A stretch of DNA of 64,000 nt from contig JAPZRO010000004.1 in assembly GCA_027531395.1 (NCBI GenBank), positions 682,001-746,000 of the forward strand, written 5' to 3'. Below the pieces are notes generated by a model that saw only the letters and a program-made list of their open reading frames with translations, ran no database searches and had not been told where the DNA came from. Position numbers and translations under genes: made by a program. The DNA is from Porphyrobacter sp. (GTDB taxonomy: Bacteria; Pseudomonadota; Alphaproteobacteria; Sphingomonadales; Sphingomonadaceae). Positions 34,172-51,474 of the stretch are shown in pieces. Every line of letters begins with the position of its first letter. The stretch's first letter is position 1.

Positions 34172-35367
34172 GCCTTTCAGAACCCATCATCCGCCTCGCC
34201 GCCAAGGGCGACGGGGTCACCGCCTCGGGGCGTCATGTATCGGGCGCCGTGCCGGGTGATGTGGTGGACGAGGGCGGGGCGATCACGCCCGGGCCGCACC
34301 ACATCGCACCCGCCTGCCGCCATTTCGCAACCTGCGGCGGGTGCCAGTTGCAGCACGCCGACGATACGGTGCTCGCCGATTTCGTGCAGGACCGGGTGGT
34401 CAATTCGGCCAAGGGTCAGGGGCTGGAGCCCGAGGATTTGCTCCCCGTTCACCTCTCGCCTCCGCACACCCGTCGCCGCGCCGGGCTGCATGGTCTGCGC
34501 ACCGCCAGGGGCGCAGTGCTCGGCTACCGTGAGGGCGGATCGCACCGCGTGGTCGATCTGGCCGAGTGCCCCGTGCTGCACCCCGCGCTCGCCGCGCTGA
34601 TTGCGCCGCTGCGCAAGTTCGTCGCGGCGCATGGCCCCAAGGGAATGGTCGGGATCGACCTGACGCTGGCCGATCAGGGGGTCGAGGCGAACCTGACCAA
34701 CTTCCCGCTCGAAGGCCTGGGGCCGACCGAGGCGGCGCTCGATTTCGCGCGTGACCATGCGCTCGCCCGCCTGACCATCGATCAGGGCTATGGCCCCGAG
34801 ACGCTGTGGGAGCCCGAACCGGTGACGGTGACGCTGTCGGGCGTGCCAGTCAGCCTGCCGCCGGGGGCTTTCCTTCAGGCGACGCAGGACGCCGAAGTGC
34901 GCATGGCCGCCGATGCCGCCGCATGGCTGGGCGACGCGCGGATCGTGGCCGATCTGTTCGCGGGGCTTGGCACCTTCGCCTTTGCCTTGCGCGAGGGACG
35001 CAAGGTGCTGGGGGTGGAGGCCGAGCGTGCCGCGCACCTTGCCTGCAAGACCGCCGGAGCGCGGACGGGTGGCAGCGTGCTGGCGCTCCACCGCGACCTG
35101 TTCCGCTCGCCGCTCCAGCCAGAGGAGCTCAACCGCTTTGATGCCGTGCTGCTCGATCCCCCGCGTGCGGGCGCCCGTGCGCAGGTGGCGGAGATTGCCG
35201 CCAGCAGCCTCAAGCGCGTGGTCTATGTCAGCTGCAACCCCTCAAGCTGGGCACGCGATGCGGCGACACTGGTGGAGGCAGGCTTTCGCCTGACGAAACT
35301 GCGCCCGGTCGGCCAGTTCCGCTGGTCAACCCATGTCGAACTTGTGAGCCTTTTTATCCGGCCCTGA
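34168..35367 (+). CDS. Class I SAM-dependent RNA m5U methyltransferase (RlmD/TrmA family)
   Basis: A 399-residue RNA uridine-5-methyltransferase. An N-terminal TRAM-like region precedes an iron-sulfur motif, Cys at about 50, 56, 59 (CRHFATCGGC) and 134 (AECPVLHP), as in RlmD. The Rossmann core has VADLFAGLGTFAFALREG (about 268-285), LLDPPRAGA, and the catalytic Cys in YVSCNPSSW. The canonical C-terminal Glu lies in STHVELVSLF. It is slightly shorter than E. coli RlmD, as in other alphaproteobacteria; the rRNA or tRNA target is unproven. It starts GTG, coupled to the preceding gene, and its 3' end overlaps the convergent hydrolase gene by 14 bases. Confidence 0.88.
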   Translation: MSLSEPIIRLAAKGDGVTASGRHVSGAVPGDVVDEGGAITPGPHHIAPACRHFATCGGCQLQHADDTVLADFVQDRVVNSAKGQGLEPEDLLPVHLSPPHTRRRAGLHGLRTARGAVLGYREGGSHRVVDLAECPVLHPALAALIAPLRKFVAAHGPKGMVGIDLTLADQGVEANLTNFPLEGLGPTEAALDFARDHALARLTIDQGYGPETLWEPEPVTVTLSGVPVSLPPGAFLQATQDAEVRMAADAAAWLGDARIVADLFAGLGTFAFALREGRKVLGVEAERAAHLACKTAGARTGGSVLALHRDLFRSPLQPEELNRFDAVLLDPPRAGARAQVAEIAASSLKRVVYVSCNPSSWARDAATLVEAGFRLTKLRPVGQFRWSTHVELVSLFIRP

Positions 35368-36148
35368 GCGCCGCAAGGATCTGCGCTTCGAGCCACGCCT
35401 GATGTTCGGGCTCGACATAGGCATGGCCCGCACCCTCGCAGCGCCGGATGCGCGGATCGCTCTTGTCCCACGCGCTCTCGAACACCTGTGCGGTGCGATC
35501 GGCGGTGGCGAGGAGGATGCGCGTTTCGCCCGCAAAGCCCGCAAGCCCCTCGCGCATTTCCTGCGCGAGGCTTGACGGTGCAGGGGCGGGGCTGAGCGAG
35601 CGCATCAGCCCGCGCGCAAGCTTGCCGAGATCGACCCCGCCCGCGAGCAGGCGCGCGATCTCGCGCGGGTTCTTGAGCTTTTCGAGATAGCGCGCGCGGA
35701 TCGCGGCGGGCGGCGGGGTGGCATCGGCCTCGGCGCCGCTCTCGTCCTGCTCGATCGTCCAGGGGTTCGACAGCACCAGCGCATCGCACCCCGCGCCGCT
35801 CGCCAGCATCAGCGCCGAGGCCGCATCGCAATTGCCGAAAGCGACCACGCGCTGGATCTGCGGGGCGATGGCGCGGAAAGCCTCGATCGCGGCGGTAATG
35901 TCTCTGGCCGAGTGGCGGAAGCCGCGGTTCTCGCCCTCGCTGTCGCCCACCCCGCGGCGGTCGAAGCGGAACACCGGAAAGCCGGCCTTGGCGATCCGCG
36001 CGGCGAGCTTGGCCTGCCCGGAAAAGGCCCCGGCGCGCAGCTCGTTGCCGCCGGTGACGATCAGCAGGCCGGCGGTGCCCGGCGCGGTGTCGAGCGTTGC
36101 GGCAAGGCGGAAGTCCTTGCAGGCGAAGGAGAGCGGCAGGCGGCTCAT
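35354..36148 (-). CDS. Exosortase-A-system-associated hydrolase 1 (alpha/beta fold)
   Basis: A 264-residue alpha/beta hydrolase matching, from memory, the XrtA-associated hydrolase 1 family. Features are LLIVTGGNELRAG near the oxyanion position, FRFDRRGVGDSEG, and a nucleophile elbow VAFGNCDAASAL. There a Cys replaces the usual Ser of G-x-S-x-G. Such genes occur almost only in XrtA exopolysaccharide clusters, which is the situation here. A substrate is unknown; release of an acyl group from the nearby carrier protein is a plausible role. The start overlaps the stop of hydrolase 2 by four bases (ATGA). Confidence 0.85.
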   Translation of the reverse strand: MSRLPLSFACKDFRLAATLDTAPGTAGLLIVTGGNELRAGAFSGQAKLAARIAKAGFPVFRFDRRGVGDSEGENRGFRHSARDITAAIEAFRAIAPQIQRVVAFGNCDAASALMLASGAGCDALVLSNPWTIEQDESGAEADATPPPAAIRARYLEKLKNPREIARLLAGGVDLGKLARGLMRSLSPAPAPSSLAQEMREGLAGFAGETRILLATADRTAQVFESAWDKSDPRIRRCEGAGHAYVEPEHQAWLEAQILAALRAG

Positions 36149-36819
36149 GCCACGCTGCCCGCAATGATCGCGGCCAGCGCCTCGCTCTGGCGCGGGTCCT
36201 CGTCCGGTTCGGCGCGCAGCCACAGCCCGGGGCCGCCGAGCGCGCTCTGGGCGATCTCGCTCTGACCCTCGGCGAGCTCCGGTTCGGCGTGCTCGAGCTC
36301 GCGGATCATGCCTGCGCCGAGCGACCAGCCGCCAAGCACCAGCCCCTCGCTGCGGCCCAGCGCCAGCAGCGCCTCGGCCTTCTCCTCGCGCCCGGCCTCG
36401 CGTGCGGCGATGGTGCGGGCGCGGATCATGCCGCGCAGGGTCTTCGGGCCGGACTGGGCGGCATAGTGCCAGCCGGGGAGGTGGGCAGGGGCTAGCAGCG
36501 CTCCGGCCCGGACCGTCAGGACATGGGTCGCGCCGAAGGCCTGCGCTGCAGCCGACATGGCTTCGCGCCAGCTACCGAGGGTCTGGGTGTCGAGCGGGGC
36601 AAGGCTGTCGTTGCAGCCGGGCAGATCGGGCAGGAAGCTGTCGATCCCGGCCTTGTCGAGCCGCCGCATCACCTCGACGGTGAAGCGCCGCAGCTTGTTG
36701 GCCTCGTCGAACCATGCGGGGCACACCAGCACGCGGACGGGCCGCGCCTGATCGAAGGCGACGAGCAGTTCCTCGCCCGCCGCGTCGTCGGCTCTGGTGA
36801 TGGTCCAGGAGGCAATCAC
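36145..36819 (-). CDS. Exosortase-A-system-associated hydrolase 2 (alpha/beta fold)
   Basis: A 224-residue alpha/beta hydrolase. It has V-L-V-C-P-A-W-F-D-E-A-N-K-L-R-R at the start (normally P-P-F-x-E-E-x-N-K-x-R in this family), DLPGCNDS, and the nucleophile elbow LGGWSLGAGM (Ser around 170). The carrier-protein gene lies 12 bases upstream and hydrolase 1 overlaps downstream, so the three form one minus-strand operon with the GNAT-like gene. It acts in the cytoplasm (no signal). Its role in exopolysaccharide synthesis is known only by association. Confidence 0.84.
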   Translation of the reverse strand: MIASWTITRADDAAGEELLVAFDQARPVRVLVCPAWFDEANKLRRFTVEVMRRLDKAGIDSFLPDLPGCNDSLAPLDTQTLGSWREAMSAAAQAFGATHVLTVRAGALLAPAHLPGWHYAAQSGPKTLRGMIRARTIAAREAGREEKAEALLALGRSEGLVLGGWSLGAGMIRELEHAEPELAEGQSEIAQSALGGPGLWLRAEPDEDPRQSEALAAIIAGSVA

Positions 36820-36831
36820 GCCCGCGCGGGC

Positions 36832-37128
36832 CTAGCCGCCGGCAAGCTTGGCCCGGGCAAAGGCCAGCAGGCCGCCATAGGTCTCGAGCATCTCGCCATC
36901 GACGTCATCATCCTCGATCACGATGCCCAGCCGGTCTTCCATCTCGGTGAGCAGGCCCGCAACCGCCATCGAATCCAGTTCGGGCAGGTGGCCGAACAGG
37001 CCCGAATCCGGCCCGAAGGCCGCGGCCTGCGCCGGGTCGAGCCCGAGCACATCGGCGATCAAGCCCTTGAGTTCCTGATCAAGCGCAGCCTCGGCGGCTT
37101 CGCTCGGGAGGGTCGGATTAGCATTCAT
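36832..37128 (-). CDS. Acyl carrier protein of the exosortase A locus
   Basis: A 98-residue carrier protein. The phosphopantetheine attachment site is Ser53 in LPELDSMAVAGLL, the usual D-S-M/L motif at the start of helix II. The helices flanking it and the acidic surface (MEDRLGIVIEDDDVDGEML) fit an ACP. It is not the fatty-acid AcpP, which has a different length and neighbours. The gene is placed between the GNAT-like protein and the hydrolases and opposite the acyl ligase, so it probably carries an activated acyl or aminoacyl unit used on the polysaccharide. The ATG at 37128 is chosen; an ATG at 37140 would add four residues. Confidence 0.88.
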   Translation of the reverse strand: MNANPTLPSEAAEAALDQELKGLIADVLGLDPAQAAAFGPDSGLFGHLPELDSMAVAGLLTEMEDRLGIVIEDDDVDGEMLETYGGLLAFARAKLAGG

Positions 37129-37209
37129 CGGATCGCCCAAATCCCTGTCATCGGCGGTTGGCCGCGGGGCTTAGCCATGCCGGTCCCTGCGTGCAAGCGT
37201 TGCGGCGAC

Positions 37210-38205
37210 TCAGGCGCGAAGCCTGCGCAGCATCCGCTTGGCCAGCGGCGCCCAGGCTGCGGGCTGCCCCATGTCGAGACAGTCGATGCGGAAACGTGGA
37301 CGCACCGCCTCCATCCAATCGGCCTTGTAGCTCTGATCACCTGTGCCGAAGTCGACCAGATCAACCTTGTCGATGTCGATCACGTGCTGGAACAGCGCGG
37401 CGCTCAGCGTGGTGCCGGCGGACAGCGGCTTGTGGCTTTCGAGATGGGCGAGCTTGTGGATGTAGGCGACGCCGTTCTCGACCGTCCAGCATTGCGCCGC
37501 GACCGCGAGGCCCTCGGCCCGGGCGACGCCGAGCCGCAGCCGCCCGGCCGCGCCCTCGCTCTGGGCAAAGGCGCGCAGCATCGCGGGCTGGTCCTCGGCC
37601 GGTTTCCAGCTGGCGGCATAGATCGCCTCGTAATCGGCCCAGACATCGGCATCGAAACGGGTGAGCACCTGCGTCTCGACCTTCTTCGCCTTGCGCTTCA
37701 GCGTCGTGCGCAGCTGTCCGGGGCGGCTTTCCCAGTATTCGGCAAAGCTGCGCCCACCGACTTCGAGGATGTGATTGGTGTCGCAGGCCTCGACCGCGAC
37801 CCGCCAGCCGGCAGCGCGGAAGGCGCGGGCGAGGCGCTCGGCCGAGCCGTCCTCGCCCGGCACGGGTTCGAGCGTGACGCGGTGGCCGCGGGTCTTCAAT
37901 TGCCGCGCGATGGCTTCGAGCAGCCGGTCACCCGCTGCGCCCGCGGGGGCAAGTTGGCGCCAGGTGAAGGAGTACCAGTTGCGCAGCGGTGTGATACGCC
38001 CGCCATCCTCCGTCAGCGCGAGCGCGGCGGCGTTATCGGCATCGCTGGCAATCGCGATCAGCGGGGTGAGGCCGGTCTCGGCGAGCAGGGCATACCACTC
38101 CGCACGGTCGAACGGCGCGCTCGCCGCAGGCGCAGTCAGCGCTTGCAAGACGTTAACGCTATCGTGATACCGCGCTTCGATCACTGAAAGAATGCTCCCG
38201 TTCAT
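37210..38205 (-). CDS. GNAT/BioF2-like acyltransferase of the exosortase A locus
   Basis: A 331-residue protein of the CelD/BioF2-like GNAT group. Its central signature is R-T-T-L-K-R-K-A-K-K-V, then AIYAASWKP, GRLRLGVARAEGLAVAAQCWTVENGVAYIHKLAHLE, and the end region VDLVDFGTGDQSYKADWM. That layout is shared by FemAB-like aminoacyltransferases, so transfer of an acyl or aminoacyl group from the ACP to a saccharide or peptide is plausible. The ATG at 38205 (MNGSILS) overlaps by two bases the divergent start of the ligase gene. A GTG 21 bases further in (VIEARYHD) is an alternative. Confidence 0.78.
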   Translation of the reverse strand: MNGSILSVIEARYHDSVNVLQALTAPAASAPFDRAEWYALLAETGLTPLIAIASDADNAAALALTEDGGRITPLRNWYSFTWRQLAPAGAAGDRLLEAIARQLKTRGHRVTLEPVPGEDGSAERLARAFRAAGWRVAVEACDTNHILEVGGRSFAEYWESRPGQLRTTLKRKAKKVETQVLTRFDADVWADYEAIYAASWKPAEDQPAMLRAFAQSEGAAGRLRLGVARAEGLAVAAQCWTVENGVAYIHKLAHLESHKPLSAGTTLSAALFQHVIDIDKVDLVDFGTGDQSYKADWMEAVRPRFRIDCLDMGQPAAWAPLAKRMLRRLRA

Positions 38206-39751
38206 GTCCAGCCTGCCCGATCCTCTCCCGCGTGCGCTTGACCACCTTGCCGAACTGGCGGGGGCGGCGGGGCATGGCGAAAGGCCGGCGCTGGCGTTGC
38301 GCGAGGGCACGCTTAACCACAATCAGTTAAGACAGCGTGTTGCTGTGCTGGCCGGATGGCTGGCGCAGATGCTGCCCGAGAAGGGCGCGCGTGTGGCGAG
38401 CTGGGCGGCCAAGGGCGAGCTCACCTGCCTGCTGCCGCTGGCGGCGGCGCGGGCAGGGCTGGTGCACGTGCCGGTCAACCCGCTGCTCAAGCGCGCACAG
38501 GTGGCGCATATCCTTGGCGATAGCGGCGCGAAGCTGCTGATCGGCACGGGTTCGCGGTTGGCCTCGCTCGAGCCGGACGATCTGCCGCCCGGCTGCGCGG
38601 CGCTGGGCGAGGGCGAGGCACTGGCAGCGGCGGAGGCGGCGGGGCGCGAGCTGGGACCGTCGGCGGCCGATCCGGCGGACCTCGCGGCGATCCTCTATAC
38701 CTCGGGTTCCACCGGCAGGCCCAAAGGCGTGATGCTGAGCCATGCCAATATGTGGCTCGGCGCGGTGAGCGTGGCGCATTACCTTGGGCTTCAGAACGAC
38801 GACGTGACGCTGGCGGTGCTGCCGTTGTCCTTCGACTATGGCCAGAACCAGCTCCTGAGCACGTGGTTTGCAGGCGGCTGCGTGGTGCCGCTCGATTTCC
38901 TCTTCCCCAAGGATGTCGCCAAGGCCTGCGCAAAGCACGGCGTGACGACGCTGGCAGCGGTGCCGCCCTTGTGGGTGCAACTGACCGAGATCGACTGGCC
39001 GGCGGAGGCGTCGGCTCCCCTGCGACGGCTGACCAATAGCGGCGGGGCGCTGACGGTGGATCTGGTGCGGTCCCTGCGCGGGATGTTCCCGCAGGCACGG
39101 CTGTTCCCGATGTATGGGTTGACGGAAGCCTTCCGTTCGACCTTTCTCGATCCGGCGCTGGTCGATTTGCATCCGACTTCAATGGGTAAGGCGATTCCCT
39201 TCGCAGAGATTCTCGTTATCAACGATGCGGGCGAAGTCGCCGCCGATGACGAGGAAGGTGAGCTGGTCCATTGCGGCCCGCTGGTGGCGCAGGGCTATTG
39301 GCAGGACCCGGAGCGCACAGCCGAACGCTTCAAGCCCGCGCCGGCCGCCTCAAGCTATGGCGGGATGGCGGTCTGGTCGGGCGACCGGGTGCGGCGCTCG
39401 GCCGAGGGGCTGCTCTATTTCGCCGGACGGCGCGACGCGATGATCAAGAGCGCGGGCAACCGCATATCCCCTCAGGAGGTCGAGGAGGCGGCGCTTGCCA
39501 CCGGCCTCGTCGCCGAGGCGGTGGCGCTCGGCGTGCCGGACGCCCGCTTGGGCCAAGCGGTGCATCTTGTGGTGCGCGGCAGCGGCGACGAAGCCGCGCG
39601 CGCCGATCTGCCCAAGCGCCTCCAGCGTGACCTGCCCAATTTCATGCAGCCGCAGCATATCCACTGGCGCGCTGCCATGCCGATCAACCCCAACGGCAAG
39701 ATCGACCGCACGGCCCTGCAAGCCGAACTCAACAAGGAATTCGCCGCATGA
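38204..39751 (+). CDS. Acyl-CoA/acyl-ACP ligase (AMP-forming), exosortase A system-associated
   Basis: Adenylate-forming ligase of 515 residues. Core motif LYTSGSTGRPKG is at about 163-175, MYGLTEAFRST at about 305, then GDRVRRSAEGLLYF and GRRDAMIKSAGNRISPQEVE (A8), with the C-terminal Lys in NPNGKIDRTAL. The family (XrtA-associated ligase) is found in exopolysaccharide clusters. It most likely loads the ACP encoded on the opposite strand. An ATG at 38192 would add MLPF. The stop overlaps the decarboxylase start (ATGA), so the two are coupled. It begins the right arm of the locus and its promoter must lie within the divergent gene. Confidence 0.88.
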   Translation: MSSLPDPLPRALDHLAELAGAAGHGERPALALREGTLNHNQLRQRVAVLAGWLAQMLPEKGARVASWAAKGELTCLLPLAAARAGLVHVPVNPLLKRAQVAHILGDSGAKLLIGTGSRLASLEPDDLPPGCAALGEGEALAAAEAAGRELGPSAADPADLAAILYTSGSTGRPKGVMLSHANMWLGAVSVAHYLGLQNDDVTLAVLPLSFDYGQNQLLSTWFAGGCVVPLDFLFPKDVAKACAKHGVTTLAAVPPLWVQLTEIDWPAEASAPLRRLTNSGGALTVDLVRSLRGMFPQARLFPMYGLTEAFRSTFLDPALVDLHPTSMGKAIPFAEILVINDAGEVAADDEEGELVHCGPLVAQGYWQDPERTAERFKPAPAASSYGGMAVWSGDRVRRSAEGLLYFAGRRDAMIKSAGNRISPQEVEEAALATGLVAEAVALGVPDARLGQAVHLVVRGSGDEAARADLPKRLQRDLPNFMQPQHIHWRAAMPINPNGKIDRTALQAELNKEFAA

Positions 39752-40974
39752 AGCCCGTCGGTCCGATCCCCGCCGGTTACGAGACCATCGCCGGAGAACT
39801 TGCCATCGGCGGCAAGCGCGCGAGCGAGCTGGTGGCCGAGGCCGGGCGCACGCCGCTGTTCGTCTATTCGCGCAAGCACCTTGATGGCCGCGTGGCGCAG
39901 CTGCGCGCCGCGCTGCCGAAGCGCGTCGGGATCAACTACGCGGTCAAGGCTAACCCGCACCTCGCGGTGATCGGCCACATGGCTCCGCTGGTCGACGGGT
40001 TCGACATCGCCTCCTCGGGCGAGCTGGCGCTGTGCGTGGCGGTGGGGATCGACCCCGCGCGGATCAGCTTTGCCGGGCCCGGCAAGCGCGACGATGAACT
40101 CGAAGCCGCGATCGGGGCCGGGGTGACGCTCAACTGCGAGAGCGAGGGCGAGGGCCGCCGCGCGCTCGCCATCGGCCAGCGCCTCGGCAAGGCGCCGCGC
40201 ATCGCCATCCGCGTTAATCCGAGCTTCGAACTCAAGGGCTCGGGCATGAAGATGGGCGGCGGTGCCAAGCCTTTCGGCGTTGATGCCGAGCGGGTGCCCG
40301 ATCTTGCCCGCGAACTGATCGCTGGCGGGGCCGAATGGCGGGGCCTCCACATCTTCACCGGCAGCCAGGCGCTGAGCGCGGACGCGATCATCGAGGCGCA
40401 GGGCAACGTGCTCGACCTTGCCGCGCAGCTGACCGAGGCGATCGGCCATGGCTGTCCCAAGCTCAACATGGGCGGGGGCTTCGGCATTCCCTATTTCCCG
40501 GGCGACGAACCGCTCGATCTGGCGCGGGTCGGCGCGGCGCTGGCCGAGCGGGTCGAAAACCTGCCGGCGGCGCTCGCGGACAGCGCATTGTGCATCGAAC
40601 TCGGGCGCTATCTGGTCGGTGAGGCGGGGGTTTACCTCTGCCGCGTGATCGACCGCAAGGAGAGCCACGGCGTGGTCTACCTCGTCACCGATGGCGGGCT
40701 GCATCACCAGCTCGCTGCCTCGGGCAATTTCGGCACCGTGGTGCGGCGTAACTATCCTTCAGCGATTGCAAGCCATTACGGGGCAGAGCCGACAGAGGAA
40801 GTGAACATCGTCGGCTGTCTATGCACCCCGCTCGACCGGCTTGCCGACAATGCCGCGATGCCGCGCGCCGAGGTCGGCGATCTGGTCGCGGTGTTTTGCG
40901 CCGGGGCTTACGGGGCAAGCGCCAGTCCTGCCGCCTTCCTCGGCCACGGTCCGGCGGCCGAACTGCTGGTCTGA
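39748..40974 (+). CDS. PLP-dependent decarboxylase, exosortase A system-associated (fold III, DAPDC-like)
   Basis: A 408-residue group IV decarboxylase related to diaminopimelate and ornithine/arginine decarboxylases. The PLP Lys is residue 67 (NYAVKANPH). Others are GFDIASSGELAL, the phosphate loop LNMGGGFGIPYF, and CIELGRYLVGEAG, where most relatives have E-P-G-R. VGCLCTPLDRLADN supplies the second-subunit Cys/Asp. It would convert an amino acid to an amine for the polysaccharide or its decorations. Coupled to the ligase by ATGA. Substrate unknown. The lysA role is unlikely given context and the altered EPGR motif. Confidence 0.88.
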   Translation: MKPVGPIPAGYETIAGELAIGGKRASELVAEAGRTPLFVYSRKHLDGRVAQLRAALPKRVGINYAVKANPHLAVIGHMAPLVDGFDIASSGELALCVAVGIDPARISFAGPGKRDDELEAAIGAGVTLNCESEGEGRRALAIGQRLGKAPRIAIRVNPSFELKGSGMKMGGGAKPFGVDAERVPDLARELIAGGAEWRGLHIFTGSQALSADAIIEAQGNVLDLAAQLTEAIGHGCPKLNMGGGFGIPYFPGDEPLDLARVGAALAERVENLPAALADSALCIELGRYLVGEAGVYLCRVIDRKESHGVVYLVTDGGLHHQLAASGNFGTVVRRNYPSAIASHYGAEPTEEVNIVGCLCTPLDRLADNAAMPRAEVGDLVAVFCAGAYGASASPAAFLGHGPAAELLV

Positions 40975-41179: not shown

Positions 41180-41821
41180 ATGCCCCAATCGCTGTCTTTT
41201 GCCCGCCTTGCCACCCTCGGTCTCGCGCCGTTGGCGCTGGCGGCCTGCGTCAGCGGCGGGACGGAACTCCCCCCGGCTAACTACAGCGAAAATCCGATCG
41301 CGCCGTCCGAGGAATACACCATCGGGCCGCTCGACGAGATCACCATCCACGTCTGGCGCAACCCCGAACTCAGCGCCGACAAGGTGCGCGTGCGACCCGA
41401 TGGCCGCCTGACGATCCCGCTGGTGCAGGACATCCCGGCGGTCGGCAAGACCGCGACCCAGCTGCAGGAATACATCGCCGGCGAGCTGTCGAAATATATC
41501 GAGCAACCGATCGTCTCGGTGATCGTCAACACGCCCGAGGGCAACTTCACCCAGCAGGTGCGAGTGATCGGCGCGACCGCGCAGCCGGCCTCGCTGCCGT
41601 TCCGCGCCAACATGACCGTGCTCGATGCGATGATCGCGGTCGGCGGCCTCAGCGAATTCGCGGCCGGCAACTCGGCCAAGCTGATCCGTCAGAACCGCGA
41701 GACCGGCAAGCAGGAGGAATACCGCCTGCGCCTGTCCGATCTGATCCGGCGCGGTGATGCCAGTGCCAATGTCATGCTGATGCCGGGGGATACGATCATC
41801 ATCCCGGAAAGCCGGTTCTGA
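41180..41821 (+). CDS. Outer-membrane polysaccharide export lipoprotein (Wza-like, XrtA type)
   Basis: A 213-residue polysaccharide biosynthesis/export protein. The signal peptide ends with lipobox LAAC (Cys about 23). A Poly_export domain (EEYTIGPLDEITIHVWRNPELS, VRPDGRLTIPLVQDI) and SLBB-type repeats (RVIGATAQPASLPFR, VLDAMIAVGGL) follow, ending with VMLMPGDTIIIPESRF. This is the short EpsE/Wza-like form of XrtA clusters, forming a channel in the outer membrane for exopolysaccharide. The chain-length determinant gene follows after 17 bases. Confidence 0.93.
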   Translation: MPQSLSFARLATLGLAPLALAACVSGGTELPPANYSENPIAPSEEYTIGPLDEITIHVWRNPELSADKVRVRPDGRLTIPLVQDIPAVGKTATQLQEYIAGELSKYIEQPIVSVIVNTPEGNFTQQVRVIGATAQPASLPFRANMTVLDAMIAVGGLSEFAAGNSAKLIRQNRETGKQEEYRLRLSDLIRRGDASANVMLMPGDTIIIPESRF

Positions 41822-41838
41822 CGGGGGCCGCAGGCAGC

Positions 41839-43359
41839 ATGAGCGAGATCTTCGAGGAACTGCGCGCGGCGCTGTGGTCGGTCTGGCACCGGCGCTGGCT
41901 GGCGATCGCGGTCGCCTGGGGCGTGTGTCTGCTCGGGTGGCTGGTGGTCAGCATGATCCCCAACACCTACGAGTCCAAGGCGCGCGTCTATGTCGACGTC
42001 GAGGACGTGCTGTCCAAGCAACTCGGCATTGCCGGTGACGGCAAGGAAGAGATCATGCGTGTGCGGCAGACCCTGTCGAGCGCCAAGAATCTCGAAAAGG
42101 TCATCACCGCCACCCGTCTCGGCGAAGTCGTGACCGAGCGCGGCGCGCTCGACGCGATGATCGGCGAACTCGAGAAGAAGGTGAAGGTGACGAGCGAGCA
42201 GGACAACCTGTTCGAGATCACCGCCGAAATCGGGCGCAGCGATTTGTCCGATGCCGAAAATGCCGTGCTGGCGCGTGATGTGGTGCAGAAGCTGCTCGAC
42301 ATCCTGCGCGAGGAGCACGTGGTCGGCAACCGCGCCGGGATCAGCTCGGCGATCGGCGATCTCGACCGCCAGCTCGAAGAGCGCAAGCGCGAGCTTGAAG
42401 CAGCCGAACAGCGCCGCCTGACTTTCGAGGCCCAATATCCCGATCTGGTCGGCGGCTCTGACAGCCTGTCGAGCAAGGTGCAGTCCGCCCGCGCCGATCT
42501 GCGCGCGGTCGATGCCGATCTCGCCGCCGCCGAAAGCGCGCTGGCTGCGATCTCGGGCCAGCTGGCGAACACCCCGCGCACCGTCGTCGGCGGACCGCAG
42601 GCGACTGGCCCGCGCGCCGCGCTCCAACAGGCCCAGACCCAGCTTGCCGAGCTGCGCTCGCGCGGTCTGACCGACAGCCACCCCGATGTTGTCTCCACCA
42701 CCAAGCAGGTTGCTCTGCTGGCACGGCAGGCTGCGGCGGCCGGTGACGATGCCGGTGGAACGCCCAATCCGGCCTATGCCTCGCTGCTGGCGATCCGCAC
42801 CGAGCGGCAGGCGAATGTCGAGGCCCTGCAGGCCCGCCGCGCCGCGCTTCAGAGCGATTTCGCCGCGCTGATGGCGAGCCAGGCTTCCGAACCGGCGGTG
42901 GCCGCCGAAGCCAACCGCATCAGCCGCGACTACGACGTGCTGCGCGCCAATTACGAGAAGCTGCTGCAGGACCGCGAGGCGCTGCGCACGCGCGGCAAGG
43001 TCGAGGACAAGGCCAGCCAGTTCCGCTTCGACGTGATCCAGGAACCCAGCGTGCCGCGCAAGCCGGCCGCCCCCAACCGTCCACTGCTGCTGCTCGGCGT
43101 GCTGATCGTTGGCCTCGGGGCCGGGGCCGCGGCTGCCTATGTGCTGGCCCAGCTCAAATCGAGCTTCGCCACGCCGCAGAAGCTCGAACGCGCTTTCGAT
43201 CTGCCGGTGATCGGCGCGATCTCGCTGACCATGTCGGATGCCGCGCGCACGCTGGAGAAGAAGCGGCTCAAGCAGTTTGCCGGGGCCAGCGCCGGGCTGG
43301 TCGGCGTGTTCGTGATCCTGCTGGCGATCGAGATCGTCTCGATCGGGACGATTGCGTGA
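41839..43359 (+). CDS. Polysaccharide chain-length determinant (Wzz/PCP family, XrtA system)
   Basis: A 506-residue inner-membrane co-polymerase. TM helix 1 is at about 20-39 (WLAIAVAWGVCLLGWLVVSM), and the Wzz motif with YESKARVYVDVEDVL follows. A long periplasmic coiled coil covers about 170-400 (R-Q-L-E-E-R-K-R-E-L-E, then KLLQDREALRTRGKVED). The C-terminal part holds P-x2-P-x4-P (PRKPAAPNRP) with a TM helix at about 415-440 and another at about 480-503. The tyrosine-kinase partner is the next gene rather than fused, which fits a bipartite BY-kinase system. Controls chain length. Confidence 0.92.
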   Translation: MSEIFEELRAALWSVWHRRWLAIAVAWGVCLLGWLVVSMIPNTYESKARVYVDVEDVLSKQLGIAGDGKEEIMRVRQTLSSAKNLEKVITATRLGEVVTERGALDAMIGELEKKVKVTSEQDNLFEITAEIGRSDLSDAENAVLARDVVQKLLDILREEHVVGNRAGISSAIGDLDRQLEERKRELEAAEQRRLTFEAQYPDLVGGSDSLSSKVQSARADLRAVDADLAAAESALAAISGQLANTPRTVVGGPQATGPRAALQQAQTQLAELRSRGLTDSHPDVVSTTKQVALLARQAAAAGDDAGGTPNPAYASLLAIRTERQANVEALQARRAALQSDFAALMASQASEPAVAAEANRISRDYDVLRANYEKLLQDREALRTRGKVEDKASQFRFDVIQEPSVPRKPAAPNRPLLLLGVLIVGLGAGAAAAYVLAQLKSSFATPQKLERAFDLPVIGAISLTMSDAARTLEKKRLKQFAGASAGLVGVFVILLAIEIVSIGTIA

Positions 43360-43375
43360 GGACAGGGGAAACGCG

Positions 43376-44383
43376 ATGACCGATCAGGGCAAGATCAACC
43401 GTGAAGGCGCAAAGCCGGCCTCGCTGTTCGAGCGGGCCGACAGCGTTTTCGGGCTGGGCCCGGTGCGCACCGCGCCCAAGCTGCCGCCGGTACCGCCCGT
43501 GCCCGAGGCACTGCGCCGCGCGCCCGCGCCGCAACCCGCCGCGCCTGCACCCCAGCCTGTTATGGCCGCGCCGGTCGCGCCCGTCGCTGCTGCCCCTGTG
43601 AGCGCACCTGCGCCCGCACCGGCTCCGGCCCCGGAAGCCCCGCGCGCGGTCGCTTTCAGCGGCCCGTTTGCTGCGGTCGACCGCGATCACCTGCGCGACG
43701 GCGGCCTGCTGGTGCCCGAGGATCCGGTGACCGGGCTGCTCGAGGAGTTCCGGATCGTCAAGCGCGAGCTGCTCGCCGATGCCCGCGCTGGCGACAGCGC
43801 GCTTGCCCGCCGCATCCTCGTGTGTTCGCCCCATCCGGGCGAGGGCAAGACCTATTGCGCCACCAACCTCGCCATCGCGCTCGCTGCCGAACGCGATCTG
43901 GAAGTGCTGCTGGTGGACGCCGATGTGGTCAAGCCGAGCGTCACCGAGCGGTTCGGGATCGAAGCCGAGCAGGGCCTGATGGATGCGCTCGCCGATCCCG
44001 CGATCGCGCCCGAAAGCCTCGTGATCCGCACCGATATCGACGGGCTGTTCGTGCTGCCCGCCGGCACCGCCTCCTCGCGCGATGCCGAATATCTTGCCAG
44101 TGCCCGCACCGGCGCGGTGCTCGACCGGCTGACGCAGGGCGCGCCGAACCGCATCCTGATCTTCGACACGCCGCCCGCGCTCGCCGCATCGCCTGCCGCA
44201 GAGCTCGCCGCCCATGTCGGGCAGGCGCTGTTGGTGGTGCGTGCCGACGAGACCGCGCGCGCCGCGCTGGAGGACGCGCAGCAGCTGCTGTCGGCCTGCG
44301 CGGACATCAAGCTGCTTCTCAATGCCACGCGCTACAGCCCCACCGGGCGACGCTTCGGCACCTATGGCGCAAAGGGGAAATGA
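43376..44383 (+). CDS. P-loop tyrosine autokinase (BY-kinase-like), XrtA system
   Basis: A 335-residue cytoplasmic ATPase of the CpsD/CapB type. A Pro/Ala-rich segment (about 30-95) precedes an ATPase core with Walker A HPGEGKT (about 153-159), VLLVDADVVKP (Walker A'), and LIFDTPP (Walker B). The C-terminus has only two Tyr (RYSPTGRRFGTYGAKGK) rather than the dense Tyr cluster of classical BY-kinases, so autophosphorylation may be limited. Works with the preceding chain-length determinant. AGGGGAA stands upstream of the ATG at 43376; a GTG-like start at 43352 overlaps the previous gene and is less likely. Confidence 0.88.
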   Translation: MTDQGKINREGAKPASLFERADSVFGLGPVRTAPKLPPVPPVPEALRRAPAPQPAAPAPQPVMAAPVAPVAAAPVSAPAPAPAPAPEAPRAVAFSGPFAAVDRDHLRDGGLLVPEDPVTGLLEEFRIVKRELLADARAGDSALARRILVCSPHPGEGKTYCATNLAIALAAERDLEVLLVDADVVKPSVTERFGIEAEQGLMDALADPAIAPESLVIRTDIDGLFVLPAGTASSRDAEYLASARTGAVLDRLTQGAPNRILIFDTPPALAASPAAELAAHVGQALLVVRADETARAALEDAQQLLSACADIKLLLNATRYSPTGRRFGTYGAKGK

Positions 44384-44385
44384 CC

Positions 44386-46047
44386 ATGCGCGCTTCGATC
44401 CTGGCTCTGCCGTTCGCGCTGGCCGCGCTGGTCGCTGGCGCACCGGCGCTGGCCCAGCAACAGCCGATGGGCTCCGCTCAGGGGCAGGGGCAGGGCGCGG
44501 GCGCTTCCGGCAGCCAGCGCAGCAACCGCGTGGTGCAGCCCTATATCGAGGTCGGCCAGGTGCTCTCCGCCGAGCTTTCGCCCGGCGATGACGTGCTGAC
44601 CTTCACCACCATCGCGGCGGGGGTCGACATCAATGTGCAGGGCCGCAACAGCGGTGCTGCCGTCTCGCTGCGCTACGAGCGCAACATCGGCTACGGCAAT
44701 GACAGTGTCGATACCGACACCATCAGCGGTGTTGCGCGCGGCACGCTGGCGCTGGTGCCCAACACGCTGAGCCTCGAAGCCGGCGCGCTCGCGTCGCGCA
44801 CCCGGGTCGATGCCGGGGGCGGCACCACCACCAACCCGCTGGTGCGCGAGGATGCCGAAAGCCGCTTCTACAGCTTCTATGCCGGGCCGAGCCTCAACAC
44901 CCGCGTCGGCGACGTCGGCGTGCAGGGCGTGGCGCGGGTCGGCTACAACCGCTTCGAGAACGATGCGGTGCTGACCAATGCGCAAGGCGATCCGGTCGAC
45001 GTGTTCGACGACAGCGTGACCTACATGGGCCAGCTGCGCGCCGGCACGCGCGCGGGCGAAGTCTTGCCGGTCGGCCTCGCGGTCACCGCCGGCGGCTATC
45101 AGGAAGACATCTCCAACCTCGACCAGCGCGTGCGCGACCTCTTCGTGCGCGGCGACGTGACCGTGCCGGTCAGCCCGACCCTCGCGGTCGTTGGCGGCGT
45201 GGGTTACGAGAATGTCGAGATTTCCAGCCGCGACGCGCTGCGCGATGCCAATGGCGATCCGGTGATCGGCAATGACGGCCGCTTCGTCACCGATCCCACC
45301 TCGCCGCGCATTCTCGCTTTCGACGTCGACGGCCTGCTGTGGGACGTGGGCGTGATGTGGCGGCCCTCCTCGCGCACCTCGCTCGAGGCGCGGGTGGGCG
45401 AGCGTTACGATTCGACCACCTATTACGGCACCTTCACCTACACCCCCAACCAGCGCAGCGCCTTCGCGCTCAGCGTCTATGACGGGGTGACCGGTTTCGG
45501 CGGGCTGCTCAACAATTCGCTCGCCGGCCTCGACAGCGACTTCCAGGCGATCCGCAATCCCGTGACCGGCGATTTCGGCGGGCTCGTCAACGGCACCGAG
45601 GGACAGTCGATCATCGGCGGGCTCGGTTCGGTGCGCTCGGCAGCGTTCCGCGGCCGCGGCGTGCGCGCCTCCTACCAGCGCATCATGGGCCGCACCACCG
45701 CGGCGCTGGGCGCAGGATACGACCGCCGCACCTTCATCGCCGCACCCGGCACCGCGCTGGCACCACTCGATGGCCTGACCGACGAGAGCTACTACGTGAT
45801 CGGCGGGCTGACCCGCCAGATCGGGCAGAACGCGAACCTCACCACCAACGCCTACGTCAACTGGTTCGACAGCGCTTCGGCGAACGGCGACGTGACCGCG
45901 ATCGGCGGCTCGGCGGCCTACAACCAGTCGCTGACCCGGCGCCTCACAGCGCGCGCGGCGGTGGCGCTCGATTACTTCGATAGCGAATTCACCGCTGAAG
46001 ACTTCGCCTTTGCGACCGCGCTGGTCGGCCTGCGCTACGATTTCTGA
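44386..46047 (+). CDS. Outer-membrane beta-barrel protein of the XrtA/exopolysaccharide system
   Basis: A 553-residue exported protein. The signal peptide (MRASILALPFALAALVAGAPALA) is cleaved near residue 23. A Gln/Gly/Ser-rich stretch is followed by a long alternating beta-strand region that ends in the aromatic terminal residue of barrel proteins (ALVGLRYDF). The VQPYIEVGQVLSAEL start and many Y/F-rich strands match the XrtA-associated PEP-CTERM-system outer-membrane family. Probably assists secretion or anchoring of the polysaccharide. The second ATG, 44386, is used because AAGGGGAA is well spaced; ATG 44380 is possible. Confidence 0.86.
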   Translation: MRASILALPFALAALVAGAPALAQQQPMGSAQGQGQGAGASGSQRSNRVVQPYIEVGQVLSAELSPGDDVLTFTTIAAGVDINVQGRNSGAAVSLRYERNIGYGNDSVDTDTISGVARGTLALVPNTLSLEAGALASRTRVDAGGGTTTNPLVREDAESRFYSFYAGPSLNTRVGDVGVQGVARVGYNRFENDAVLTNAQGDPVDVFDDSVTYMGQLRAGTRAGEVLPVGLAVTAGGYQEDISNLDQRVRDLFVRGDVTVPVSPTLAVVGGVGYENVEISSRDALRDANGDPVIGNDGRFVTDPTSPRILAFDVDGLLWDVGVMWRPSSRTSLEARVGERYDSTTYYGTFTYTPNQRSAFALSVYDGVTGFGGLLNNSLAGLDSDFQAIRNPVTGDFGGLVNGTEGQSIIGGLGSVRSAAFRGRGVRASYQRIMGRTTAALGAGYDRRTFIAAPGTALAPLDGLTDESYYVIGGLTRQIGQNANLTTNAYVNWFDSASANGDVTAIGGSAAYNQSLTRRLTARAAVALDYFDSEFTAEDFAFATALVGLRYDF

Positions 46048-46065
46048 TTGGGGAGCGAGACGCTC

Positions 46066-47241
46066 ATGTACGAACAATATTACGGCTTCACCGCCCGGCC
46101 TTTCCAGCTGACGCCCGATCCGCAGTTCTATTTCGAGAGCACCAGCCACAAGAAGGCGATGAGCTATCTCGGCTATGGCCTCGGGCAGGGCGAGGGCTTC
46201 ATCGTCATCACCGGCGAGGTCGGCGCGGGCAAGTCGACGCTGGTCGCGCACCTGATGGAGCGGATCGACCCAGCGGCGTTGACCGTGGCGCAGGTCGTCA
46301 CCAGCGCGCTCGACGGGGCCGAACTGGTCCACGTCGTGGCGCAGGCCTTCGGGCTGGCGGTCGAAGGCCATGACAAGGCTGGCGCGCTGGGCGCGATCGA
46401 GCGCTTCCTTCAGGACGAGGCCCGCGCGGGCCGGCGCTGCCTGCTGGTGGTGGACGAGTGCCAGAACCTCGATCTGGAGGCGCTCGAAGAGCTGCGGATG
46501 CTGTCGAACTTCCAGCTCGGATCGCACCCGCTGCTCCAGAGCCTGCTGCTCGGCCAGCCCGAATTCCGCCGCACGCTCGCCCATCATCCGGGGCTGGAGC
46601 AATTGCGCCAGCGGATCATCGCCTCGCACCATCTCGAAGCGCTCGATGACGGCGAGGTCGAGGACTATGTCCGCCACCGCCTCGGCCATGTCGGTTGGAG
46701 CGGCCATCCCGCGCTCACCGAAGGGCTGCTGGGCGCGCTCTATCGCCGCACCGACGGCATTCCGCGTCGGGTCAATCAGGTGATGAACCGCCTGCTGCTG
46801 CTCGGCGCGATCGAGGAGCGGGACGAGTTGACGCTGGCGATGCTCGACGAGGTGGTTTCCGAAATGGCGGTCGACCAGACCCGCGGCGCGCATGGGCGCG
46901 GCGATCTGCGCGCCGCGCCTGCCGCTCCGGCCGCCCCTGACATGGTCGCCGGGGCCGACAGCCTGCCGGCCGCCGAAGTCGCCGCGCTGCTTGCCACCCG
47001 CGATGCCCGCACCGCCGAGCTCGAAGCCGCGATCAGCGCGCTGCAGGCCGCTGGGACCGAGCAGCGCGATGCGGGTGAGGAAACGCTCTCGCCCGAGGAA
47101 GTGCGCCTCGCCGAGGCCCGCTTCGCCGCCGAACTCGAACGCATCGAGGCCCGGCTCGAGGAGCAGGAGCAATCCTTCCGCCATGTGCTCACCATGCTGA
47201 TCGAGTGGCTCGAGGAAGATCCGTCGCGCGAGGCCGCGTGA
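46066..47241 (+). CDS. XrtA-associated AAA ATPase (ExeA-like)
   Basis: A 391-residue ATPase related to ExeA/GspA. It begins MYEQYYGFTARPFQLTPDP, the family opening. Walker A GEVGAGKST is at about 50-58, Walker B LLVVDECQNL at about 129-138, and the arginine-finger region GIPRRVNQVMNRLLLL follows. The C-terminal part (about 300-375) is Ala/Glu-rich and likely coiled coil, and it carries no peptidoglycan-binding domain. GGGGAG precedes the ATG at 46066. Role in the exosortase/EPS system is inferred from association; it may energise assembly of the export complex. Confidence 0.88.
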   Translation: MYEQYYGFTARPFQLTPDPQFYFESTSHKKAMSYLGYGLGQGEGFIVITGEVGAGKSTLVAHLMERIDPAALTVAQVVTSALDGAELVHVVAQAFGLAVEGHDKAGALGAIERFLQDEARAGRRCLLVVDECQNLDLEALEELRMLSNFQLGSHPLLQSLLLGQPEFRRTLAHHPGLEQLRQRIIASHHLEALDDGEVEDYVRHRLGHVGWSGHPALTEGLLGALYRRTDGIPRRVNQVMNRLLLLGAIEERDELTLAMLDEVVSEMAVDQTRGAHGRGDLRAAPAAPAAPDMVAGADSLPAAEVAALLATRDARTAELEAAISALQAAGTEQRDAGEETLSPEEVRLAEARFAAELERIEARLEEQEQSFRHVLTMLIEWLEEDPSREAA

Positions 47242-47242
47242 C

Positions 47243-48181
47243 GTGAACGCGCCGCACGGTCCCTTTCCCGAGGTCTCCGGCCACGGGTCCAGTGTCGTCA
47301 ACGGCCTGTCGGTCGACGTCGAGGACTGGTTCCAGGTCGGCGCCTTCGAGAACGTGATCGCGCGCGGCGAGTGGGACTCGATCCGCACCCGCGTCGAGAG
47401 CAATGTCGATCGTATCATCGACCTCTTCGCCGAGGCCGATGTGCGTGGCACCTTCTTCACTCTGGGCTGGGTCGCGAAGCGCCATCCGGCGATGATCCGC
47501 CGCATCGCCGAGGCCGGGCACGAGATCGCCAGCCACGGCTATGATCACGCCCGCGTCTTCACCTTCAGCCGCGCCGAATTTGCCGAGGATATCCGCAAGG
47601 CGCGGCAAATCCTCGAGGACAGCGCGGGCGTCGCGGTCACCGGTTACCGCGCCCCGAGCTTCTCGATCGATCACCGCACGCCCTGGGCCTTCGCCGAACT
47701 GGCCGAACAGGGCTATGCCTATTCCTCCAGCGTCGCGCCGGTGGTGCATGATCACTATGGCTGGCCCGAAGCCCCGCGCTTTGCCTTCCGCCCGCTGCCG
47801 TGGTCCTCGCTGGTCGAACTGCCGGTGACCACCGCTCTGCTTGGCGGGCGGCGGGTCGCGGCCGGCGGTGGCGGGTTCTTCCGGGTGCTGCCCTATGGGT
47901 TCTCGCGCTGGGCGATCCGGCAGGTGAACCGCAGCGAAGGCCGCCCGGCGGTGTTCTATTTCCACCCGTGGGAGATCGATCCCGATCAGCCGCGCGTCGG
48001 CCATGCCCCGCTGCGCTCGCGCTTCCGGCACTATACCGGCCTTGCCCGGATGGCCGACAAGCTGCGCGCGCTGGTCCACGAATTCCGCTGGGGCCGGATG
48101 GACATGATCGCTCACCGCGAGGCCGCGCGCGCCGGTGAACTGCCTGCGCCTGCCAGCCTCGGCGAGGAGTTTGCGGCATGA
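47243..48181 (+). CDS. Polysaccharide deacetylase, XrtA system (NodB fold)
   Basis: A 312-residue carbohydrate esterase family 4 protein. Motif 1 is the DVEDWF form (Asp about 25 and 28) typical of XrtA/PEP-CTERM deacetylases. Motif 2 is ASHGYDH with metal-ligand His at 98 and 102, and RAPSFSID is motif 3. C-terminal YFHPWEIDPDQPR belongs to the DUF3473-type extension. Would remove N-acetyl groups from polymer units, in the cytoplasm or periplasm (no signal peptide seen). Starts with GTG one base after the ATPase stop, and overlaps the FemAB gene by four bases. Confidence 0.9.
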   Translation: MNAPHGPFPEVSGHGSSVVNGLSVDVEDWFQVGAFENVIARGEWDSIRTRVESNVDRIIDLFAEADVRGTFFTLGWVAKRHPAMIRRIAEAGHEIASHGYDHARVFTFSRAEFAEDIRKARQILEDSAGVAVTGYRAPSFSIDHRTPWAFAELAEQGYAYSSSVAPVVHDHYGWPEAPRFAFRPLPWSSLVELPVTTALLGGRRVAAGGGGFFRVLPYGFSRWAIRQVNRSEGRPAVFYFHPWEIDPDQPRVGHAPLRSRFRHYTGLARMADKLRALVHEFRWGRMDMIAHREAARAGELPAPASLGEEFAA

Positions 48182-51462: not shown

Positions 51463-51474
51463 GCCCGCAGCCCT

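Follow-up and report, generated by a model that had tools for sequence, protein, structure and literature searches.

A gene set for carrier-protein-dependent aminoacyl group synthesis predicted next to the exosortase A operon of Porphyrobacter sp.

Introduction

What is made by a group of genes whose ligase, decarboxylase and hydrolase belong to families with names that state only the company of exosortase A (XrtA)? This question is raised by a 64,000-nucleotide stretch of Porphyrobacter sp. DNA (hereafter the window), in which six genes, for an adenylating ligase, a decarboxylase, an acyl carrier protein (ACP), a transferase and two alpha/beta hydrolases, adjoin an XrtA operon. A previous description of this DNA made without database searches (the sequence-only reading) presented these genes as a possible carrier-protein line, and all six were found at this locus in our analysis. 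The same reading held that these families are known only from their association with exosortase and that their product is undefined, in agreement with the NCBIfam names and with our searches of the openly licensed literature, which found no function for the ligase or the decarboxylase.

Gene content of the locus

On the forward strand, the ligase gene (38204-39751; TIGR03098, 635.7 bits with a cut-off of 592.35) is followed by the gene for a BtrK-like fold-III PLP decarboxylase (39748-40974; TIGR03099, 588.3 bits, cut-off 478.45). The other four genes are encoded on the reverse strand: the tandem-GNAT transferase with a predicted FemX/MprF fold (37210-38205; PF13480, 57.4 bits, cut-off 22), the stand-alone ACP (36832-37128; PF00550, 29.6 bits, cut-off 20.8), for which the attachment Ser noticed earlier was located in the motif LDSM, hydrolase 2 (36145-36819), which is weakly similar to TIGR03101 (38.3 bits, far under the cut-off of 202.75), and hydrolase 1 (about 35354-36148; TIGR03100, 221.5 bits, cut-off 168.45), which has the alpha/beta hydrolase fold and for which an alternative, upstream GTG start would give 35354-36223. 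The shared start proposed for this cluster turned out to be literal: a single CATG (38203-38206) contains the ATG of the ligase on the forward strand and that of the transferase on the reverse strand, other starts being possible.

The neighboring XrtA exopolysaccharide operon (41180-53370, forward strand; NCBIfam TIGR03027, 03007, 03018, 03016, 03015, 03006, 03019, 03087, 03109 and 03108) encodes an export protein, a chain length protein, a Tyr kinase, an outer membrane protein, an ATPase, a deacetylase, FemAB, a glycosyltransferase, XrtA (50386-51462, forward strand, an NCBIfam match) and an amidotransferase. Eight of these families, including XrtA, FemAB and the export, chain-length, deacetylase and amidotransferase families, are over their cut-offs, and TIGR03018 and TIGR03016 are under theirs. 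The transferase of the six-gene set had been labeled GNAT/FemAB-like; the GNAT part of this label stands, with the correction that the protein has the tandem-GNAT fold seen in Fem and MprF proteins, whereas the FemAB of TIGR03019 is another protein (48178-49239, forward strand).

Predicted pathway

We propose, with moderate confidence, that aspartate is loaded via its beta-carboxyl on the ACP and decarboxylated there, and that a beta-alanyl-type group is passed on. Under this scenario, the ligase would adenylate L-aspartate, or a closely related compound, at its side-chain (beta) carboxyl and attach it there, through a thioester bond, to the phosphopantetheine of the neighboring ACP, the alpha-amino acid end staying free. 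The BtrK-like PLP decarboxylase would strip the alpha-carboxyl from the tethered residue, yielding a group of the beta-alanyl-S-ACP type with a free amine, to be moved by the GNAT with the FemX fold, by hydrolase 1 with its Cys nucleophile, or by both, to an acceptor that, in most species, is probably part of the XrtA exopolysaccharide system. We infer the substrate, the product and the order of steps from the gene set, the pocket residues, the decarboxylase kinship, the predicted folds and the co-occurrence of the genes, all of which can be read from the sequences. For macrolactam starters, adenylation, a stand-alone ACP and decarboxylation are given in this order in PMC10662134.

Genomic distribution and destination of the product

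A scan with the decarboxylase only, from which the best 80 of 588 confirmed relatives were kept (nearly all from Sphingomonadales by title), included 56 loci with full flanks. At these 56 loci among the best 80 of 588, the ligase and the ACP are each present in 56/56, hydrolase 1 and hydrolase 2 each in 53/56, the export gene in 49/56 and the GNAT transferase in 45/56; the clustering of the set is more than chance. In 28 of the 35 loci having both genes, that of the decarboxylase adjoins that of the ligase on one strand, separated by less than 400 bases, and in one genome (G102) the two are about 1.9 Mb apart. Within a sample of 299 genomes, the set is found over cut-off in eight families.

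One alternative competes on the destination and not on the chemistry: the product could be soluble or a lipid rather than a polymer, and the link with XrtA regulatory or secondary. The ACP/ligase/decarboxylase trio is indeed found without XrtA over the cut-off in G107, G146, L140 and L166, and at L140 (Sphingorhabdus sp. Alg239-R122) and L166 (Croceicoccus mobilis) it sits amid mostly housekeeping genes with no XrtA match; one of the nine neighbors scanned at these two loci, in L140, is type III polyketide synthase-like. The wider distribution argues the other way. XrtA is over the cut-off in 24 of the 26 genomes with the decarboxylase and, conversely, 24 of the 29 XrtA genomes have the decarboxylase; G295 retains both although they are about 420 kb apart; and some of the copies without XrtA, such as L040 and L048, are flanked by glycosyltransferases or a sugar transferase. 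We regard a non-polymer product as a distinct minority possibility. The decoration of a polymer, which the sequence-only reading had predicted, is a plausible destination, but an obligate role in polysaccharide modification has lost ground with the four occurrences of the trio outside XrtA genomes.

The adenylating ligase

VinN is an enzyme that adenylates (methyl)aspartate, handling it as a beta-amino acid, and D230, F231, S299, K330 and R331 are named as its key pocket residues (PMC11253843). When a profile of 21 decarboxylase-linked ligase pockets was compared to the PDB, VinN scored 94.7 bits and the next protein 64.6 bits; lower scores with this profile were obtained for CmiS6 (51.5), HitB (46.6) and DltA (37.8 bits). 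Four of the five named residues match in the window ligase, in which D, Y, S and R align to VinN D230, F231, S299 and R331 with no gap in the loop, which is one residue short as in VinN; one extra loop residue is present in L068 and L069. The Asp at the D230 position (ligase residue 235; FDYG in the window) is found at 35/35 loci with the decarboxylase in the retrieved stretch and at 11/17 others, and Arg 331 at 52/52 loci; R331 of VinN, the counterpart of this invariant Arg, presumably binds the alpha-carboxylate. The decarboxylase step cannot be taken as proven by these pocket residues, since Tyr 236 and Arg 331 are likewise shared by all 17 ligases whose retrieved stretch has no decarboxylase. 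The pocket is variable at other positions: among the 35 decarboxylase-linked ligases, 4 have Ala instead of Tyr/Phe at residue 236, and 10 lack Ser at residue 301, the place of VinN S299 (Thr in 9, Ala in 1). At the place of the fifth named residue, K330, the window ligase carries Phe, as do 31 of the 35 decarboxylase-linked ligases, and Lys is confined to 7 of the 17 others; accordingly, the likeness to VinN is claimed for the pocket and not as full membership. The ligase thus aligned appears to have an amino-acid-type adenylating pocket, nearest to that of VinN, and a fatty-acid ligase is not favored given that the amino-binding Asp is kept in all decarboxylase-linked loci.

Glutamate mutase is the maker of methylaspartate. 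A fused S-E form of this enzyme (450 and 431 bits, cut-off 390) is encoded near the ligase in 2 of 52 loci, which are distant relatives from different families: it adjoins the ligase in L051 and lies about 0.8 kb off, on the same strand, in L057. Three of the 299 genomes encode the E part, those of L051 and L057 being the ones with a full-length copy. In both mutase-linked ligases, residue 301 is Ala and not the Ser of VinN, and no decarboxylase is encoded near the ligase of L057.

The decarboxylase

The nearest PDB entries of the decarboxylase are those of BtrK (2j66/7ru7, 229.5 bits), compared to 136.4 bits for the best diaminopimelate decarboxylase (DAPDC). The motifs CTPxD, KMGG, DGGxHH and FLGH are common to the decarboxylase and BtrK, CTPxD replacing the CE(S/T)GD of DAPDCs, which reads CETGD in the two that were compared. 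Given that whole-sequence identity hardly separates BtrK (35%) from the DAPDC 2p3e (33%), the kinship with BtrK rests on the scores, the motifs and the tree, in which the enzyme and BtrK fall together, separated from LysA and a DAPDC, the branch order among the BtrK and decarboxylase groups not being firm; the paralogue L089, which the filter excluded, is not part of this tree. A role in lysine biosynthesis was rejected because lysA is a separate gene elsewhere in the genome (428.6 bits), grouping with a DAPDC in the tree. BtrK decarboxylates BtrI-S-glutamate, that is, an amino acid on a carrier protein (PMC7857480). By its relationships, the enzyme of the window is of the carrier-dependent kind, predicted to act on a carrier-bound amino acid.

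The same tethered chemistry could, in principle, operate on L-glutamate, loaded via its gamma-carboxyl and converted to a GABA-type group, which would be the true butirosin logic. The nearest characterized relative, BtrK, acts on Glu-S-BtrI, and chain length is not fixed by the pocket residues alone, VinN K330 not being conserved; the VinN pocket match and the glutamate mutase near two of the loci, however, both indicate aspartate-type acids, which makes glutamate unlikely. A reversed order, with the decarboxylase first making a free beta- or gamma-amino acid and the ligase then loading it, would parallel the VinN-like IdnL1, CmiS6 and HitB, which activate beta-amino acids without the alpha-carboxyl (PMC11253843), but it appears quite improbable in view of the invariant Arg 331, which corresponds to a VinN pocket residue, and the position of the decarboxylase with BtrK, away from LysA and a DAPDC. 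A Dlt-like function, in which a plain amino acid such as D-alanine would be loaded by the ligase and the decarboxylase would serve another purpose, shares with our locus the stand-alone ligase and ACP and finds DltA among the PDB matches of the ligase (133 bits), but is very improbable considering the 155 bits of the ligase against the DltA family TIGR01734 (cut-off 559.85) and the close linkage of the decarboxylase and ligase genes. The D-alanylation (DltA/DltC) logic invoked in the sequence-only reading was rejected on the same score and because the decarboxylase, having no place in Dlt, would be left unexplained.

Carrier protein, GNAT transferase and hydrolases

The proposed path from aspartate to a beta-alanyl-type group would call upon a carrier and a transferase. 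The nearest PDB sequence to the ACP is 2lki (E 5.8e-10), a carrier protein is encoded within the retrieved stretch at 49 of 52 relatives' loci, with one additional fused copy, and the genome has one phosphopantetheinyl transferase match (PF01648). The GNAT transferase gave no NCBIfam family at E 0.001 and only chance matches to PDB sequences in a phmmer search; in its AF2 model (mean pLDDT 89.7), the top Foldseek match is FemX (E 6.0e-14, TM about 0.63), pointing to a tandem GNAT fold as in the FemX/MprF aminoacyl transferases. This protein is a candidate aminoacyl transferase for which the carrier protein, instead of aminoacyl-tRNA, is the likely donor, as suggested by a single ORF in one species that includes both the GNAT and the ACP (an internal ATG could start a separate ACP). 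The GNAT cannot be the sole transferase because it is absent near the trio in 11 of the 56 loci; it was not found at L140 or L166 either, when the neighbors there were compared in alignments among themselves and to the GNAT.

In hydrolase 1, the triad C108/D218/H243 is invariant in 22/22 aligned members. Instead of the Ser nucleophile in GxSxG of a Ser hydrolase, this protein has a Cys (GNCDA in the window, motif GxCDxA) that all 22 aligned members share; among 64 further copies, 63 have this Cys and L173 has Gly. A fold search yielded feruloyl esterases and lipases, a general result that assigns no function. Hydrolase 1 is a candidate for an acyl-transfer or thioesterase step and, with its invariant Cys-Asp-His triad, could as well be a transferase. 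It is found in exactly 24 of the 31 searched genomes, namely those with both the decarboxylase and XrtA. This rule was retested on ten further genomes, comprising all seven full-length loci without a nearby export gene and three complete ones, among which L119 is apparently the same genome as G146 and so not independent; it held in nine of the ten, the exception being L108, a metagenome assembly in which hydrolase 1 is present with no XrtA match. Hydrolase 2 has no conserved nucleophile among 23 aligned sequences, and GxSxG is present in 10 of 64 further copies; the copy in the window carries GWSLG, and the protein is probably degenerate in most relatives.

Of the succession previously suggested for this locus (activate, load, modify, transfer, proofread), the first four steps are matched by the predicted amino-acid pocket, the ACP, the putative carrier-dependent decarboxylase and the aminoacyl-transferase fold. 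Proofreading by the two hydrolases is doubtful given the lack of a conserved nucleophile in hydrolase 2 and the possible transferase role of hydrolase 1.

Comparison with known systems

By analogy, the logic of the gene set appears to be that of the butirosin and vicenistatin lines and not that of Dlt. The butirosin system (BtrI/BtrK) likewise combines a stand-alone ACP with decarboxylation of a carrier-bound amino acid, and the decarboxylase has BtrK as its closest relative of solved structure; the butirosin system differs in the product, an antibiotic side chain, in its transferases and genomic setting, and in its ligase BtrJ, which has another fold, ATP-grasp. The vicenistatin starter line (VinN, the VinL carrier and the VinO decarboxylase) shares most of the pocket residues, the stand-alone ACP, the presence of a decarboxylase and the glutamate mutase, the latter only with two relatives of our locus; in contrast, Phe replaces VinN K330 here and the surrounding genes are for exopolysaccharide and protein sorting, no polyketide synthase being named among the scanned proteins of the window. 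In Dlt, too, a small carrier is charged by an adenylating ligase in order to modify the envelope, but our set includes a decarboxylase and a FemX-fold transferase and its ligase is far under the DltA cut-off; neither DltB nor DltD was named for any of the window proteins in the NCBIfam scan. FemX, MprF and the streptothricin peptide synthases resemble the GNAT transferase in predicted fold but use an aminoacyl-tRNA donor, in place of which a carrier protein probably serves here.

In the sortase system, the thioester is resolved by the pentaglycine amine. A beta-alanyl (or similar) amine on the exopolysaccharide or a lipid-linked precursor might, by analogy, be the acceptor of exosortase A that resolves the XrtA-PEP-CTERM thioester, an improbable extension of the proposed path. 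For the archaeosortase ArtA with PssA and PssD, an amine made by a decarboxylase (ethanolamine) is proposed to resolve the sortase thioester (PMC7157517); unlike here, this is a lipid amine in archaea, and the bacterial parallel is hypothetical. Sorting as the main reading lost weight because a decarboxylase match (at E 1e-75) and a hydrolase 1 match (at E 1e-25) are both missing from 5 of the 29 XrtA genomes, each of which does contain PEP-CTERM matches.

Implications

For a hitherto uncharacterized neighborhood, the path proposed here offers a concrete substrate (aspartate, via its side chain), a mechanism (decarboxylation on the carrier) and a product (beta-alanyl-S-ACP). If this is true, the chemistry of antibiotic assembly would also serve a bacterial surface system, where it was not expected, and the amine that is made would be a candidate for the nucleophile drawn as unknown in the 2006 exosortase model (PMC1569441).

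Gene set and layout

The sequence-only reading had grouped six genes around one shared start, and all six were found where it placed them: on the forward strand, an adenylating ligase (TIGR03098, 38204-39751) and a decarboxylase (TIGR03099, 39748-40974), which overlap by 4 bases, and in the opposite orientation (-) a tandem-GNAT transferase (37210-38205), a stand-alone acyl carrier protein (ACP, 36832-37128) and two hydrolases (hydrolase 1, TIGR03100, approximately 35354-36148; hydrolase 2, weakly TIGR03101-like, 36145-36819). As annotated, the two divergent start codons share the CATG at 38203-38206. Downstream of the decarboxylase lies the exosortase A (XrtA) operon, with export, chain-length, kinase, outer-membrane, ATPase, deacetylase, FemAB (TIGR03019), glycosyltransferase, exosortase A and amidotransferase genes; near its end, a protein encoded at 57050-58057 (-) weakly resembles D-Ala-D-Ala ligases (79.4 bits against a cut-off of 245.65). 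The genome is 3.2 Mb in size; judged by the decarboxylase, Erythrobacter fulvus (92% identity) and E. longus (79%) are among its near relatives that are named to species level.

Decarboxylase and ligase specificity

The top PDB-sequence matches of the decarboxylase are two BtrK entries (229 bits), compared to 136 bits for the best diaminopimelate decarboxylase. In an alignment, it carries the BtrK forms CTPxD, KMGG, DGGxHH and SPxxFLGH; the diaminopimelate decarboxylase 2p3e and the LysA of the same genome, which is encoded on a different contig, have CETGD and no FLGH. Whole-sequence identity scarcely discriminates between the two (35% to BtrK, 33% to 2p3e). In a tree of 36 sequences (35 loci and the window) plus references, LysA and 2p3e stand apart and BtrK falls among the decarboxylases of these loci, the internal order not being firm. 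PMC7857480 describes the decarboxylation of BtrI-S-glutamate to BtrI-S-GABA by BtrK and a BtrK clade that includes enzymes of citryl-amino acids, MccE, diaminopimelate decarboxylases and D-ODC. The window's genome also encodes two further diaminopimelate decarboxylase relatives, both distant, about 3 kb apart (G000:C19:1129553-1134505; L088, L089).

For the whole ligase, no single-domain protein in the PDB scores better than VinN (172.9 bits); linear gramicidin synthase outranks it only by summing two domains (151 + 108 bits), and 8xjz, a two-module protein, also scores higher (188.3 bits). A pocket profile built from 21 decarboxylase-linked ligases gave 94.7 bits for VinN when run against PDB sequences; the score fell to 64.6 for the protein ranked next, and CmiS6 and HitB, which are beta-amino-acid enzymes, reached 51.5 and 46.6. 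The review PMC11253843 ascribes the specificity of VinN to D230 for the amine, the bulky F231, S299, the loop residues K330 and R331, and the shortening of the loop by one residue. In the profiled ligases, D, Y, S and R align without gaps with D230, F231, S299 and R331, and the window ligase has Phe at the K330 position.

Pocket residues were counted in 52 relatives' loci of 12-20 kb. In 35 of these the stretch includes a decarboxylase; in the other 17 it does not, and five of them (L035, L043, L047, L062, L063) have one elsewhere in the genome. The Arg is kept in 52 of 52. The Asp is present in 35/35 decarboxylase-linked ligases versus 11/17 others (Fisher p 6e-4, uncorrected for kinship); the respective counts are 31/35 and 17/17 for Tyr/Phe at 236, 25/35 and 4/17 for Ser at 301, and 31/35 and 5/17 for Phe at 330. 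Thus, most of the pocket type is family-wide, and it is the amino-binding Asp that tracks the decarboxylase. A second class of loci (L052-L056, L059, L061, L062, L066, L068, L069) combines ligase and ACP without the decarboxylase, in the stead of which there are one strong and one weaker asparagine-synthetase-like match; in L061, L062, L066, L068 and L069 the ligase has Gly, Ser or Ala in place of the Asp.

Substrate

A glutamate mutase whose S and E parts are joined in a single polypeptide is encoded in two distant lineages, adjoining the ligase at L051:7245-9176 and about 0.8 kb from it, on the same strand, at L057:5702-8305 (450 and 431 bits, respectively; cut-off 390). The order in L051 is decarboxylase, mutase, ligase, ACP, flanked on both sides by glycosyltransferase-like genes; no decarboxylase was found in the L057 stretch. 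Only 3 of 299 genomes encode the E part, two being those of L051 and L057; in the third (204 bits), the 18 kb examined contain no ligase of this kind. The product of glutamate mutase is 3-methylaspartate, the acid that VinN activates. PMC10662134 describes the combination of mutase, adenylation, stand-alone ACP and decarboxylation for macrolactam starters. Both mutase-linked ligases depart from VinN in having Ala, not Ser, at position 301, which may give space for the methyl group. The window's genome yielded no glutamate mutase match, so that the simplest reading is unmethylated aspartate as substrate and a beta-alanyl group as product. We infer that ligase, decarboxylase and ACP, the trio, form an independent unit that makes a beta-amino acyl thioester, and we lean modestly towards tethered decarboxylation of an aspartate-type acid.

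Several loci show further variants. In L049 (12038-14763), decarboxylase and ACP are separated by a B12-binding radical SAM protein, after which comes an aminoglycoside-3-N-acetyltransferase-like protein; L070 has a sulfotransferase (10970-11899) between ligase and decarboxylase. L064, L065 and L067, with two or three ligase matches plus ACP and decarboxylase matches, and in L065 also a weak ketosynthase-III-like protein, look like small natural-product pathways.

Carrier protein and TRANSFERASES

The carrier protein is a separate ORF in 49 of the 52 ligase loci, at most 2 kb from the ligase in 43, that of L057 being weak (40 bits); none was found in the L035 and L037 stretches. Among the best 80 of 588 decarboxylase relatives, all 56 named loci with full flanks encode it. 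The genome has one phosphopantetheinyl transferase match (PF01648). The structural model of the GNAT protein (mean pLDDT 89.7) best matches FemX, aminoacyl-tRNA peptide synthases of the streptothricin pathway and MprF-type synthases. In one species, the sole such case seen, GNAT and ACP form a single 442-codon open frame (G125, L077:7972-9297; also Alteraurantiacibacter aquimixticola, L127:5164-6489), within which an ATG might serve as a separate start for the ACP. In 11 of the same 56 loci, no GNAT gene lies close to the trio, so another transferase must act there.

Association with exosortase A

In 299 genomes of the phylum scored against family cut-offs, the ligase was detected in 25, the decarboxylase in 26 (including all 25 with the ligase) and XrtA in 29. 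Decarboxylase and XrtA co-occur in 24 genomes; 2 have only the decarboxylase, 5 only XrtA, and both are missing from 268 (Fisher p 2e-28; kinship inflates this figure, one family supplying 16 of the 26). The 26 genomes span eight families, seven of them with XrtA. The decarboxylase occurs without XrtA over the cut-off in G107 and G146, the latter with an exosortase match of 127.7 bits, below the cut-off. Among these 31 genomes, FemAB tracks XrtA (29/29, one slightly below the cut-off; 0/2 others).

Hydrolase 1 is the part that links the trio to XrtA: it is present in exactly the 24 genomes with both decarboxylase and XrtA (one slightly below the cut-off) and missing from all 7 that have just one of them. 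Of ten more genomes, nine obeyed this rule, including L119, which repeats G146, and L108 broke it. Its Cys, Asp and His are invariant in 22/22 copies; of 64 further copies, 63 have Cys as the nucleophile and one (L173) has Gly. With a Cys nucleophile, the protein might act as an acyl transferase or as a thioesterase. Most copies of hydrolase 2 have no nucleophile motif (GxSxG in 10/64), but that of the window has GWSLG.

G146 retains the trio, ATPase and deacetylase, but gave no FemAB match, and its stretch contains no export gene. In L140 and L166, the trio alone is kept of the families looked for, and the surroundings are mostly housekeeping genes (9 neighbors scanned), one L140 neighbor being type III polyketide synthase-like. 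In L166, one pirin-like gene is followed by those for AFG1/ZapE and the iron-sulfur subunit, which in the window lie past the operon, as if the operon had been lost and the trio retained.

Destination of the product

In XrtA genomes, the most likely destination of the group would be the exopolysaccharide or its precursor. A bolder reading takes the amine made by the trio as the acceptor for the exosortase: an unknown periplasmic nucleophile is drawn in the exosortase model of PMC1569441 (figure legend), and ethanolamine made via a decarboxylase is proposed for archaeosortase in PMC7157517. This reading is weakened by the five XrtA genomes that have PEP-CTERM matches but no decarboxylase (G007, G015, G218, G249, G286). 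At E 0.01, PF07589 PEP-CTERM has one match in the window's genome and none in G024, G189 and G201, although XrtA is present; the signal on the sorted proteins of these four genomes may have diverged.

The gene families and their exosortase company are already known from NCBIfam names, and in the open-licence literature we found no paper giving these families a substrate. Butirosin and vicenistatin-type macrolactams provide precedents for the chemistry; what would be new here is chemistry of this type in an unexpected place.
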